Shown: positions 52,531-58,306 of the stretch, piece by piece
How the letters are laid out: every line of letters starts with the position of its first letter
Position numbering within the stretch: the stretch's first letter is position 1
Source of the DNA: an uncultured Pseudomonadota bacterium
Lineage (GTDB): Bacteria; Myxococcota_A; UBA796; SXON01
NCBI GenBank assembly: GCA_903844155.1
Contig: CAIMSU010000341.1
Coordinates: 1 to 64,000, forward strand
DNA length: 64,000 bases
Direction of reading: 5' to 3'
Made by a program: the position numbers and the translations under genes
The notes under the pieces: generated by a model
Told to the model about the DNA's origin: nothing
Databases searched by the model: none
Seen by the model: only the letters and a program-made list of their open reading frames with translations

Positions 52531-53097
52531 TCAGGGGTTCAGGCCAGCGAGCACCTGCGCGACGAACACCGACAGCGGGCCGACGACCTGCCCGACGCCG
52601 AGATGGGCGCGACAAGCGTCCGAATGGGCCTTTTTGCCCGCGACAGCATCCCCGGCCGGCGCTGCAGCGACCGCCGCGGTGATCACAGGACCCGCGACGG
52701 TCGCCGTCCGCTCCATGCTTCGGAGCGCCGCCGAGCAGCCCGCGAGCCCGCTGTGGTACGCCGCGACCCCGCCGTAGTCCCCTCCCAAAAAGATCGCGTT
52801 GGCGACGTCGTCGATGCCGAGGCCGACCATCAGCCCCCAGTAGACGTGGATGGCGAGCTGGTCGGGCGCGCGCAGCACGGTCAGCATCGAGAGCACGCAG
52901 AGCTCCCGTCGCTCGGCGCGCATGTGCTTCTGGTCGTGGAAGAAGTACGCGCCCGCGCCCATCACCCACGGCTCGGCGCCGGGCATCGGGGCGACGAGGC
53001 TGCCGAGCGCCGCAGCGTAGGCGACGGCCGGATCGTAGCCGGCGCGCAGGTTTTTCAGGTTGGCATCGGAGAGCAGGCTGGTCAGCGGGGCGCTCAT
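52531..53097 (-). CDS. Carboxymuconolactone-decarboxylase / AhpD-like family protein
   Basis: 188 aa from ATG 53097. The family core is seen: AERRELCVLSMLTVLRAPDQLAIHVYWGLMVGLGIDDVANAIF...YGGVAAYHSGL, with the active-site His and the RxEL helix. The AhpD CxxC is not present, so no peroxiredoxin-type reductase activity is expected; CMD-fold proteins of this kind are often of unknown function. Its ATG overlaps the stop of the SDR gene by 4 bases; it is the last gene of the minus-strand lipid operon. Confidence 0.75.
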   Translation of the reverse strand: MSAPLTSLLSDANLKNLRAGYDPAVAYAAALGSLVAPMPGAEPWVMGAGAYFFHDQKHMRAERRELCVLSMLTVLRAPDQLAIHVYWGLMVGLGIDDVANAIFLGGDYGGVAAYHSGLAGCSAALRSMERTATVAGPVITAAVAAAPAGDAVAGKKAHSDACRAHLGVGQVVGPLSVFVAQVLAGLNP

Positions 53098-53927
53098 TCG
53101 GTCGTTCCGGGTGGGTGGTGGACGATGTAATCCCAAAGCGATTGCGTCTCGCCGCCCGTGAAGTCGAGGGTCGCGCCGTTGAACCACGCCAGCTCCTCGC
53201 CGGCGAGCAGGGCGATCAGCTCACCGACCTCCTCGATCCGCAGGATGCGCCCGGCCGGGATCACGGCGCGCACCGCCTCCTCGATGCGATCGGCCCCGCC
53301 GTCGCCGACCGTCGCGCGCAGGGCGTTGGTGCGGACCGCGCCAAACTTCAGCAGGTTCACCCGGATCCCGCTGGGGCCGAGCTCGAGCGCGAGGTGGCGG
53401 ACGCACACCTCCAACGCCGCCTTCGCCGCGGCCACGAGCGCCGTCCCGCGCAGGAGCTGGTCCGTCATCGGGTTGGACAGCGCCAGCAACCGGGCGCCGG
53501 GGGTCAGGAGATCGCGCTCCAGCAGCGCCTGCGTCCACCAGAGGAACGAGTGGGCCATCGCCTCAAACGTCTTCTCCACCTGCTTCGGGTGCGCCGGCAT
53601 CGGCCCCGGGCCCGAGGCCAACCGCGCCACGCTCGCGTTCGCGATGGCGTGCACGAGGATCCGCACGCTTCGGGGACCGGCGACCCGCAGGATCTCCTCG
53701 GCACCTTCCCGGGCGCTCGCGTACGTGCCCGCCTCGCCGACGCGCAGATGGCACCCCGACCCGAGCGCCTCGACCTCCCCCTGCATCCGCGCCGCCGTGT
53801 CCGGGTGATTCCCCCGGTGGATCCCGAAGATCTGCAGGTGATGGCGACGCGCCAGCGCGACGGACGCGGCCGCCCCGGTCCCCGCAGACGCGCCGAGGAT
53901 GACGGCCCACTCGCGCCCTTCGCTCAT
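53094..53927 (-). CDS. SDR-fold protein lacking the catalytic tyrosine
   Basis: 277 aa. Rossmann motif GASAGTG, GIHRGNHPDTA, an NASV region and the C-terminal WFNGATLDFTGG give a short-chain dehydrogenase fold, close to enoyl-ACP/3-ketoacyl-ACP reductases. In the active region 'RGTALVAAAKAALE' the Tyr of YxxxK is replaced by Val, and no Tyr sits at the Y-x6-K spacing of FabI. It may be a non-canonical reductase or a structural subunit. It is translated in 4-base overlap with both neighbours. Confidence 0.82.
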   Translation of the reverse strand: MSEGREWAVILGASAGTGAAASVALARRHHLQIFGIHRGNHPDTAARMQGEVEALGSGCHLRVGEAGTYASAREGAEEILRVAGPRSVRILVHAIANASVARLASGPGPMPAHPKQVEKTFEAMAHSFLWWTQALLERDLLTPGARLLALSNPMTDQLLRGTALVAAAKAALEVCVRHLALELGPSGIRVNLLKFGAVRTNALRATVGDGGADRIEEAVRAVIPAGRILRIEEVGELIALLAGEELAWFNGATLDFTGGETQSLWDYIVHHPPGTTE

Positions 53928-54655
53928 GCCGTCGCCCCGTCAAGCAACCCCTGGACCGCCGCTCGGACCCGCTGCCCGACGAGGTTCACGGCCGCTTTGT
54001 CCTTCGGATCGCGGGCGAGGTGTTCGGTGATGGGGGACCCCACGCGGCTGGTGATGCGTACCGGAAAAGGCAGGGAGAACGGCCAGAGCCCGAACGGGCC
54101 CACGCCAAGGTAGCTCGGGAGCGTGGGCGGCAGCTTCCAGCGCTTGGCGACGTCGTTCCCGTCGACCGGACTCCAGAACGTCCGGTCGACGCCGATGCCG
54201 GCGACCGGGATGATCGGCAGGCGATGCCGGATCGCCAGCTTCACAAAGCCGTTTCGCTCGCCCCAGTCGACCCGTCCCTGAACGGACGAGGGCCGGAAGC
54301 CGTCGCGCGTGCCGCCGGGGGTGACGATGATCTTGTGGCCGGCGCGGACCGCGGTCCCGAGCGCATCGTCGTCGCCCGTCAGAAAATCAAAGCCCTCGAT
54401 CAGGTGGCGCAGGACCGGGACGTCGCGGACGCCTTCGTGCATGATCGCGTGCGTGACGAGGTCGTAGCGGTCGAGCAGCAGCAGTTGGAGCATGCAGAGG
54501 TCGTGCGCCGAGGGGCGCCCGTGGTAGCCGACGATCAGGGCGGCGCCCGGCGCGAGGATGTGCTCGATGCCGTCGACGTTGTAGCGGTGCCAGCGCTGCC
54601 GGAAGCGCCAGTCGTTCACCCACCAGGCGCGGACGAGGCGCGCGCGGGTCTTCAA
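53924..54655 (-). CDS. Lysophospholipid/diacylglycerol acyltransferase-like protein
   Basis: 243 aa. 'VGYHGRPSAHDLCML' fits the acyltransferase HxxxxD-type region seen in DGAT/PlsC-like families, and 'VTPGGTRDGFRPS' corresponds to the EGTR-type substrate motif. PIIPVAGIGVDRTF and a hydrophobic segment (SYLGVGPFGLWPFSLPF) follow. It likely acylates a glycerolipid or lipid-like acceptor at the membrane. Its stop overlaps the downstream start and its start overlaps the patatin/KAS stop. Confidence 0.85.
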   Translation of the reverse strand: MKTRARLVRAWWVNDWRFRQRWHRYNVDGIEHILAPGAALIVGYHGRPSAHDLCMLQLLLLDRYDLVTHAIMHEGVRDVPVLRHLIEGFDFLTGDDDALGTAVRAGHKIIVTPGGTRDGFRPSSVQGRVDWGERNGFVKLAIRHRLPIIPVAGIGVDRTFWSPVDGNDVAKRWKLPPTLPSYLGVGPFGLWPFSLPFPVRITSRVGSPITEHLARDPKDKAAVNLVGQRVRAAVQGLLDGATA

Positions 54656-57375
54656 TTCCGCGCTCCACCCGGCTCCAGCGCCGCCGTCCGCAGCAGGATC
54701 GCCCCGTAGGACGTGCCACTTCCAACACCGGCGAGCAGCAACGTCATCCCCGGCCGCACCGACCCCGTGCGCGTTGCTTGATCGAGGCTGTAGGGCGCGC
54801 TCGCGGCGCCGAGGCTGCCGACGTCGTCGACGACGGGGTAGAGTTTTTCAGGCCCGAAGCCGAGATCCCGGGCGATCGCCGTGTAGAGCGGTCCGTTGGG
54901 CTGGTGCGGCAGGAAGCGATCGACCTCGTCGGGTCCCAGCCCCGCCGACTGCATGACCGTCCGGCTCGCGTGCCCGATGCAGGCGATGGCGGCGTCCGCC
55001 AGCTCCTTTCCGGACGGCGCGAACTGGTAGTACATGCCGGGCTGCGGGTGCGCGTGGAGGATCCGTCCGCGGAGCATCGCGTTGTTTCGCAGGTGGACCG
55101 CCAGCAATCCCTCCTCGGCCGTCCGCGCGGGCCCGATGATGCACGCAGCGGCGCCGTCCGCAAAAACCATCATCGCCCGCGGTTCTTTCGGCGAGAGGTT
55201 CCGCGAGAACGTCTCGACGGCGATGACGGCGACCGGACCCATCCCTGTCGCCACGGAGCGCGCGGCGATGTCCAGGCCGGTCAGGAAGCCGGTGCAGGTG
55301 TTGTTGACGTCAAAACAGTCGCAGGTGTCGTCGATGTCGAGTGCGGCGGCGACGTGGTTGGCGTTCGCGGTCGCCTCGCCCGCCGCGTGCATCAGGATGA
55401 GCGCCGAGCGCATCGTGTCGTTCGCGCGCTGCCAGAGGTTGAACTCGTAGAGGAACCGCCCGGCCCTCCCGGAGATCATCGGCGAGGTGGACGCCTCGTA
55501 CGCCGGGTTGGCGACGATGTTGCTCGCGATGAGCAGGTTCGCGCCCTGGTTGGCGAGCGGCGTGGTGGGGACGTTGCGCACGATGCCGCCGTCGACGTAC
55601 CGGAACCCGGAGCCGGTCGTCGGCGTGATGATGCCGGGGAAGGAGCTGGAGCAGCGCACGCCAAAACCGACGCTGCCAACGCCGATCACCGCCTCGCAGC
55701 CGGCGGAGATGTTGGTGGCGACGGGGTAGAGCGGCACCTCCAGCTCTTCGAGCCGCAGGAATTCCTGGCTGCGCGTCGCCCGCTTCAGCGCGCGGTCCAC
55801 GCCTTGCTGCAGGAAGACCGAGGAGAAGAACGCGGTGCGCGTCGTCAACTGGGCGCGGGGCGCGAACTCCTTGAGCGCGACGAATTCCTTGTCCTGGGTC
55901 GCGCACCAGAAGGCGCCGCACAACGAGCCGAAGCTCGAGCCGGACACCATGTCGATCGGGATCTTCGCCTGGCGGATCGCCTTGATGAGCGTGGTGTGCG
56001 CGAACCCCCACGAGCCTCCGCCGCCGAGCGCGATCCCGACCCGGCGCTCGGTGATGTCCCGGATCCACCGGGAGAACCGCTCCCGGTCAGCATCGGAGAG
56101 GTCCGAGAGCGTTCGGGCGCGCGCCACCCGAGCCAGATCGAAGCGCACCCTCACCGTCGACGGCGGGTAGGGTGGCTCCGACGGCAAGTAGCCGCCGCCA
56201 AGCTGCAAACACCAGTTCACCCGACCCGGGCCGAGCGGGAACGGGGGCGACTGCCAGGGCTTGCTCGAGACCACGAGCGCGCGGGTGACCGAACGACGCA
56301 GGGTGATGAGGTGCTCGCGCGGCACGGCGCTCGTGTCGAGGAGGAGATATTCGAGGTTCCCCGGCGTGTTCAGGCCGAAGCCGATCGTCGTCTCACCGGG
56401 GGCGTCCGGGTCGAACGGCACCGCCCCACGCCACACCTTGTCGGGGCCCTGGACCATCGCCTCCGCAGGCTGGCCCCTTGGGAGCAGGCGGAGGACAGCC
56501 ATGCGGTCGTCAAAGTCAGCGACCGCGGTCTGCGCGACGAGATCCGTGATCGCGCGCATCGGGAATTCGGGGTCACCCACGACGAGGAGCACCTCGACGA
56601 TCGCGCGGACCTGCTCGCCGTACACCGGGGACTTCACGGCCGCGGCACGCAGCGTCGGGGAGGCCAGCAGCGCCATCTGGAGCACAGCCAGCGGGATGCG
56701 GATGACGACGCTGTCGACGGTCGCGACGGCGTCCTCGGGCTCGCATTGCATGCCGCCCCGGGCCAACCCGCCGAACGGGGTGCCGGCAGTCACCACCGTC
56801 ACCCGCAGCCCGTCAGGCGAGACCGCCCGGATCTCGCCGCTTACAAGCAGGTACATCCCTATCGTCGGTGACGGCGCGTCGGGCCGCTCCGCCGTGAGCA
56901 CCTTGTCGCCCTTCGCAAACTTCGTCACTTCGCCCGTCATCACGATCCCCGCGAGCACAGGCACCGGCGCACCGGCCAGCCCCGGCAGCGTTTTTGACGC
57001 CGCGACCACGCCCGCGAGCCCGCGCCGCATCGTCCCCAGCGTCTCCAGCGCGTCCCCCAGCTTAGGGACGACGCGCTCCACATTCGCGAGCTTTGTTGCT
57101 GGCAAGATCCAGCCCGTCGCGCCGCTGTTGGCCCAGATGCGCTGCCTCGGCGTCCGCACCCGCGGCCAGCACGACTCGCCCAGCGTCACGCCCACTCCGA
57201 CGGCGATCGGCTCGGCGTAGAGGCCGTTCGGGAGGCGCGCGGAGACGGAGACCCGCCCGGACTTCAGGAAAAACACGCCAGCGGGCTCGGTGCCCGGCCC
57301 CTCGAACAGCGCGCCGTCGGCGAGCTCGCAGGGCTCGACCAGACCCGCCAGCGCCTCCCGCTCCGCCGGCGACAT
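54652..57375 (-). CDS. cNMP-binding / patatin phospholipase fused to C-terminal KAS III
   Basis: 907 aa from ATG 57375. N-terminal half: two cyclic-nucleotide-binding-like barrels (about 1-320), then a patatin domain with GGGGSWGFAH oxyanion loop, nucleophile GSSFG (Ser about 479) and DGG (YVDGGIVRNVP) as in neuropathy-target-esterase-like lysophospholipases. At about residue 660-690 it changes to the C-terminal two-thirds of a KAS III: DVNNTCTGF (Cys about 694), FLPHQPNG (His about 824), and VGSLGAAS, where the Asn of the GNTSAAS motif is Ser. The first ~90 residues of KAS III are missing. The frame opens upstream to 57654 but no clear start exists there; VFFFDDGCTI before 57375 may belong to it. 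Confidence 0.8.
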   Translation of the reverse strand: MSPAEREALAGLVEPCELADGALFEGPGTEPAGVFFLKSGRVSVSARLPNGLYAEPIAVGVGVTLGESCWPRVRTPRQRIWANSGATGWILPATKLANVERVVPKLGDALETLGTMRRGLAGVVAASKTLPGLAGAPVPVLAGIVMTGEVTKFAKGDKVLTAERPDAPSPTIGMYLLVSGEIRAVSPDGLRVTVVTAGTPFGGLARGGMQCEPEDAVATVDSVVIRIPLAVLQMALLASPTLRAAAVKSPVYGEQVRAIVEVLLVVGDPEFPMRAITDLVAQTAVADFDDRMAVLRLLPRGQPAEAMVQGPDKVWRGAVPFDPDAPGETTIGFGLNTPGNLEYLLLDTSAVPREHLITLRRSVTRALVVSSKPWQSPPFPLGPGRVNWCLQLGGGYLPSEPPYPPSTVRVRFDLARVARARTLSDLSDADRERFSRWIRDITERRVGIALGGGGSWGFAHTTLIKAIRQAKIPIDMVSGSSFGSLCGAFWCATQDKEFVALKEFAPRAQLTTRTAFFSSVFLQQGVDRALKRATRSQEFLRLEELEVPLYPVATNISAGCEAVIGVGSVGFGVRCSSSFPGIITPTTGSGFRYVDGGIVRNVPTTPLANQGANLLIASNIVANPAYEASTSPMISGRAGRFLYEFNLWQRANDTMRSALILMHAAGEATANANHVAAALDIDDTCDCFDVNNTCTGFLTGLDIAARSVATGMGPVAVIAVETFSRNLSPKEPRAMMVFADGAAACIIGPARTAEEGLLAVHLRNNAMLRGRILHAHPQPGMYYQFAPSGKELADAAIACIGHASRTVMQSAGLGPDEVDRFLPHQPNGPLYTAIARDLGFGPEKLYPVVDDVGSLGAASAPYSLDQATRTGSVRPGMTLLLAGVGSGTSYGAILLRTAALEPGGARN

Positions 57376-57481
57376 CCCGCGCAGCGCCGGCCACGGGTAG
57401 TCGAGGAAGTTCTTGCCCTCATTGAGGATGGTGCAGCCATCGTCGAAGAAGAAGACGTTGTTCTGGTTGTTGGGCGCGCTT

Positions 57482-58306
57482 CTACCCGCGTGTGCGGTGG
57501 AGCTCCCGCATGTGCGGTGTGACGGCTGTGAGAGGCCGTCCGACGACCCAGGTGACGGGGACGCCGAGCCAGCGCTCGCGTCCGACCTCGAACGCATAAT
57601 CGACGTCGCCCGCGGTGCCGGCCTGGGCCATCTGCCGCAGCTCGTCGGGCTCATACGACCGCAGGCAGGAGCAGAACCCGTCCCAGCCGAGCGCCAGCGG
57701 GACGACGGGGAGGGCGGTGTGCCAGAGCATCCGGCGCAGGCTTCTGGGCCGGGAGAGCGGCGACAACAGCGCCGCCAACGCGGGGAGCAGCACCATCGAC
57801 GCGGCGTAGGGGACAGATCGGGCGGTCACCTCGTAGACGACGATGGGCTGACGGGCGCGCGCGGCGTCGGCCAGCACACCGGCGGCGTCGGCGGGGCGCA
57901 GGTGATGGAGGCCGAGGCAGAGGGTGCGCAGGCCGGTCAAGTCGGCGGGGACAGCGCGGGCGTCGACGGGCGTGGAAACGTAGGTGATGCCAGCGCGATC
58001 GCGCAGGTGCGGCAGGAGCGACGGGTTCGGGTAGAGGTCCGTGAGGACCAGATCGACGGGCTCGCCGAGCGAGGTAGCGACGGCATCGCGCAGCGGGAGG
58101 ACGAGGCCGCCGCCGCCCGAGCACAGATCCACGATCCGTCGTCCGCCCGTCTCCCGCAGCAGCGCCGTCACCCGTCCGGCGATGGGCGTCCACGAGCGGA
58201 TGAGCCCGTTGAACGTCCTCAAAAAGTCCGCCTCCATCCGTCGCCAGTCCTCCGGCCACCAGGGCTCGTCCATCAATTCGGGCGCGTGGATGCGAGGAAA
58301 CGGCAT
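57482..58306 (-). CDS. SAM-dependent methyltransferase with hydrophobic segments
   Basis: 274 aa. Motif I region 'RRIVDLCSGGGGLVLPLRDA' and later DLVLTDLYPNPSLL, then LCLGLHHLRP, give a class I methyltransferase fold. Two hydrophobic segments (MVLLPALAALLSPL and MLWHTALPVVPLALGW) suggest membrane association, as expected for a lipid substrate. It starts directly after the stop of the OafA-type acyltransferase (TGAATG) and ends about 100 bases before the patatin/KAS start. Confidence 0.8.
   Translation of the reverse strand: MPFPRIHAPELMDEPWWPEDWRRMEADFLRTFNGLIRSWTPIAGRVTALLRETGGRRIVDLCSGGGGLVLPLRDAVATSLGEPVDLVLTDLYPNPSLLPHLRDRAGITYVSTPVDARAVPADLTGLRTLCLGLHHLRPADAAGVLADAARARQPIVVYEVTARSVPYAASMVLLPALAALLSPLSRPRSLRRMLWHTALPVVPLALGWDGFCSCLRSYEPDELRQMAQAGTAGDVDYAFEVGRERWLGVPVTWVVGRPLTAVTPHMRELHRTRG

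Follow-up and report, generated by a model that had tools for sequence, protein, structure and literature searches.

KAS III (FabH) enzymes carry the Pfam domains PF08545 and PF08541 and work as dimers of whole thiolase folds, and cNMP-domain patatin-like proteins combine PF00027 with PF01734. The solved relatives of the intact KAS III ortholog described below include 3il3, 4dfe, 4ylt and 1hn9; the patatin part of the gene studied here has a solved relative in PlpD (5fqu), and its NCBIfam RssA match was below the cut-off. No patatin-KAS III fusion, Ser-type FabH or cluster of the present kind was recognised in the titles and abstract openings of the literature searched.

The fused reading frame and its parts

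We analyzed a stretch of 64,000 nucleotides (the window), in which a single uninterrupted frame on the minus strand (54652-57375) encodes 907 aa from an ATG at 57375 to a stop ending at 54652. In this frame, a cNMP domain is followed by a patatin domain and then by ~235 residues from the C-terminal end of a KAS III. The features of the locus are as follows (all on the minus strand).

52531..53187, minus: CMD-like gene; weak Pfam match that misses the curated cut-off; the gene probably starts within this frame
53094..53927, minus: SDR / enoyl-reductase-like gene, PF13561, downstream (Pfam, NCBIfam, locus comparison)
53924..54655, minus: PlsC-like acyltransferase gene, PF01553, downstream, overlapping the KAS stop (Pfam, locus comparison)
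54652..57375, minus: fused open frame with cNMP part, patatin domain and KAS III C-terminal part (ORF list, translation, Pfam)
54652..55368, minus: KAS III remnant, equivalent to the relative's 326-aa protein from about residue 93 onward, with Cys, His and Ser for Asn (Pfam, sequence comparison)
Residues 902-989 of the 1000-aa frame, minus: ACP_syn_III_C (Pfam, 1.4e-21)
Residues 781-858 of the 1000-aa frame, minus: ACP_syn_III (Pfam, 6.7e-16)
55369..55386, minus: putative deletion junction, exact base not fixable, lacking 440 bp that in the relative span the patatin tail and the KAS III head (comparison with locus L038)
55555..56031, minus: patatin domain, PF01734 (Pfam, residues 542-700 of the 1000-aa frame, 3.6e-15)
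56674..56859, minus: cNMP-binding domain, PF00027 (Pfam, residues 266-327 of the 1000-aa frame, 4.7e-9)
57482..58306, minus: methyltransferase-like gene, upstream, without a Pfam match (weak NCBIfam match and inspection by eye)

A sequence-only reading of this DNA had described one uninterrupted patatin-KAS III frame, and translation together with Pfam confirmed it. The same reading spoke of cNMP-binding barrels; the cNMP domain was indeed present, but Pfam found one and not several. The patatin domain scored 57.1 bits against a curated cut-off of 27.7, and its translation contained both GSSFG (GXSXG) and DGG, which we take to be patatin motifs, in agreement with the claim that the Ser and Asp residues are intact. 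The patatin tail, reported as cut short at about residue 660, runs to a sharp fusion junction near residue 668 of 907 (window ~55369-55386). Beyond it, the KAS part lacks its N-terminus, as had been noticed: the NCBIfam model fabH (TIGR00747) was matched only at positions 89-321 of 322, compared with 3-320 for the intact KAS III of the neighbour genome G003. The remnant corresponds to residues from about 87-93 onward of the 326-aa ortholog, and is thus shorter than the full-length thiolase fold of ~320 residues.

The catalytic Cys (NNTCTGF) and His (PHQPNG) of KAS III are retained in the window and Ser (DDVGSLG) occupies the place of the triad Asn, exactly as first read, so that the catalytic Asn of KAS III (FabH) is absent. 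Among 25 full-length relatives, the window not counted, Cys and His were present in all; Asn was found at that place in only five (G041, G034, G025, G073 and G279), and Ser in the other 20. Thus, the idea that Ser for Asn signals decay was rejected, and the missing Asn no longer counts as part of the anomaly: because 20 of the 25 relatives carry it too, Ser is, judging from the alignment, a trait of most of this KAS III subfamily and not damage caused by the fusion.

The open frame extends upstream as far as an ATG at 57654 (1000 aa). Within it, the only ATG, GTG or TTG codons between 57654 and 57375 are those at 57654, 57597 and 57375, with none between 57597 and 57375. The ~30 codons 5' of the ATG at 57375 (window 57376-57465, minus strand) were conserved at the protein level with genome G004 (151 residues, 62% identity; L041:4681-5133, minus strand, against window 57014-57465), and coding therefore probably begins upstream of 57375. 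A promoter and terminator scan across the junction (55300-55450) yielded nothing. Opposite the fused gene lies an antisense open frame of 697 aa (window 54778-56871, plus strand), which is probably a chance shadow frame because the DNA is so G+C-rich.

Patatin and KAS III genes in related genomes

The sequence-only reading had named homologues with the KAS half as a separate gene in close relatives as a finding that would refute it, and one was found in G003 (locus L038, contig C85), which belongs to the same genus as the window genome. At the same place, G003 carries a patatin gene (773 aa) and a full KAS III gene (326 aa) as separate genes, with the patatin stop and the KAS III start overlapping as ATGA; the flanks on both sides of the fused gene are syntenic with this locus. 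Two anchors are separated by 33 bp in the window and by 473 bp in G003. Thus, 440 bp are absent from the window, corresponding to some 55 residues of the patatin and some 90 of KAS III.

This arrangement was also observed at larger evolutionary distances. Across the phylum, ten fetched genomes had a co-directional pair in which a patatin match immediately precedes the KAS III (G003, G020, G021, G023, G123, G240, G116, G372, G275 and G277), and the two were separate genes in all ten, the patatin stop lying at most 46 bp from, or overlapping, the start of the KAS III match. The reading frames of the two genes differed in nine pairs; in the remaining one (G275), they shared a frame with a stop codon between them. 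No second fusion spanning both halves was detected among the matches listed, either in the class (71 genomes searched, 13 of them matching at 1e-25) or in the phylum (377 genomes searched, 49 of them matching at 1e-28; four candidates scored per genome, so that weaker fusions could be missed), the own genome being counted in both searches. At these thresholds, the same fusion was thus not seen in other genomes, and a stable patatin-KAS III fusion family was rejected. A plasmid search returned 375 records, in none of which a single place covered 80% of the query; among the best 10 of the 375, nine carried a KAS III annotation and one was without any.

Origin and age of the fusion

Taken together, we proposed that the fused protein is likely to represent two neighbouring genes joined by a recent in-frame deletion of about 440 bp in one genome, which was one of the origins first suggested and which agrees with the separate full-length KAS genes of G003 and nine more genomes. 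Before the loss, the patatin and KAS III genes would have touched or overlapped in different frames. A single deletion of ~440 bp would have taken ~55 codons off the end of the cNMP-patatin gene and ~90 codons off the start of the adjoining KAS III gene, and since the frames differ and the missing length is 440 (3n+2), the remains would form one frame. The event was most likely a simple deletion between touching genes, and a loss by short homology or end joining would fit with the two breakpoints, which no direct repeat of at least 10 bp links in L038 (the window's own lost bases are unseen). As the chance of an in-frame fusion is one in three, the open frame is no evidence for function. In the patatin part, the catalytic core is predicted to be preserved, and lipid cleavage may still occur. 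Having lost the start of its N-terminal half, the KAS III part would neither condense nor transfer acyl groups and would ride along as a tail; from the known fold, this tail is probably inactive, leaving the downstream acyltransferase and reductase genes whole but presumably without their partner. Structure predictions from shallow alignments had a mean pLDDT of 36.0 for the intact KAS III (2-row alignment) and 29.5 for the fused patatin-KAS part (3-row alignment).

Selection on the KAS part bears on the age of the event. Compared with G003, this part was 87% identical and had the lowest pN/pS among the parts compared (0.145), followed by the SDR (0.275), the acyltransferase (0.296), the upstream methyltransferase-like gene (0.341), the patatin part and CMD (0.593 each) and the cNMP part (0.913), in a comparison whose synonymous sites are near saturation (dS 0.76-1.04). 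With six outgroups, four derived changes in the KAS part were placed on the window branch and 10 on the G003 branch, with 17 undecided; the corresponding counts were 15 and 17 for the acyltransferase and 15 and 18 for the SDR (KAS against acyltransferase plus SDR, Fisher p 0.37). Another count of derived KAS changes (19 versus 12) was replaced because it took in ~20 patatin residues that precede the junction and relied on different outgroups. By a rough reckoning, about 24 extra changed residues would be expected if selection had been absent over one tenth of the branch, and the KAS part showed no sign of an excess of changes or of relaxed selection. These substitution patterns speak against a long-dead pseudogene: if the KAS part is dead, its loss would be recent, and so the deletion is recent, or it is an assembly error, or the KAS part is still constrained.

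An assembly or consensus error would mean that the organism has both full genes and that about 440 bp were dropped, leaving an open frame by chance (1 in 3). The genome is in 375 contigs with an estimated contamination of 5%, and the absence of relaxed selection is what a whole gene would show; however, the junction lies inside a 143-kb contig, the lack of a direct repeat of 10 bp or more at the L038 breakpoints speaks against repeat collapse, and no second copy of KAS III was found in the own genome, including a separate copy of the missing head. We consider such an error unlikely, and a real and recent deletion appears the better account. The sequence-only reading also offered a functional chimera, expressed as a fused protein whose KAS remnant would still bind acyl groups or transfer them, with the patatin as their possible source. 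The ten neighbouring pairs do suggest that the two genes act in one pathway, the Cys, His and Ser residues are intact and the KAS part looks constrained, but the remnant is short of about 90 N-terminal residues, which each of the 25 relatives has or nearly has, KAS III works as a dimer of whole thiolase folds, and the search of class and phylum returned no second case among the matches listed; this proposal is not supported and is very improbable. A recently formed and expressed fusion of cNMP, patatin and KAS parts, with the constrained remnant binding acyl groups and serving as an acyl-receiving or regulatory tail for the lipase, is equally hard to credit, if not slightly more so. Thus, what appeared as a new protein family is to be regarded as having arisen in one genome by deletion (or through an assembly error) and should not be named a new chimera.

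The neighbourhood and its known counterparts

The cluster looks unstable within the genus. In G004, the patatin gene is reduced to a truncated remnant of 151 N-terminal residues within a 30-kb contig, and neither a close KAS III nor a close acyltransferase was found in that genome; no close cluster members were seen in G001 and G002. These absences are not proof because the three genomes are 79-93% complete. The start of the cNMP-patatin gene shares its 62% identity with the G004 remnant, and the patatin gene is about 37% identical to that of G003; for the surrounding genes, identity to G003 is about 75%. As it is near G004 and far from G003 while its neighbours keep their identity to G003, the cNMP-patatin gene is, by these comparisons, one that changes fast or was exchanged. 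The upstream methyltransferase-like gene is syntenic in G003, G004, G020 and G021.

Near KAS III in the loci of the 25 relatives, an acyltransferase was observed in 24 and an SDR in 23, counts that include five short loci (L015, L017, L018, L020 and L021); neither was seen in G057, nor the SDR in G041. Part of the loci also contain a CMD, a second methyltransferase-like gene and a kinase gene. SDRs typically use Tyr and Lys, and acyltransferases an HX4D motif. In all 21 aligned rows (the window and 20 relatives), the SDR had no Tyr at the usual place before Lys, and the acyltransferase had the spacing YHGR(x3-4)D instead of HX4D. The departure of KAS III, acyltransferase and SDR from textbook catalytic residues is the most interesting loose end of this locus, and the neighbourhood of Ser-type KAS III, acyltransferase and SDR, often with a patatin, recurs across the phylum and is directly testable.

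Compared with known systems, the fused frame resembles KAS III / FabH in having both Pfam domains and the Cys and His motifs, but its remnant is without about 90 N-terminal residues and has Ser for Asn, the latter as in most intact relatives. It likewise shares GXSXG, DGG and an upstream cNMP domain with the cNMP-domain patatin-like proteins, whereas it carries the KAS III remnant in place of their final ~55 residues. A further counterpart is the separate patatin and KAS III pair of the ten relatives, which has the same order and, in the nearest relatives, is followed by acyltransferase, SDR and CMD; the pair consists of two genes, and the window has one frame with 440 bp lost.
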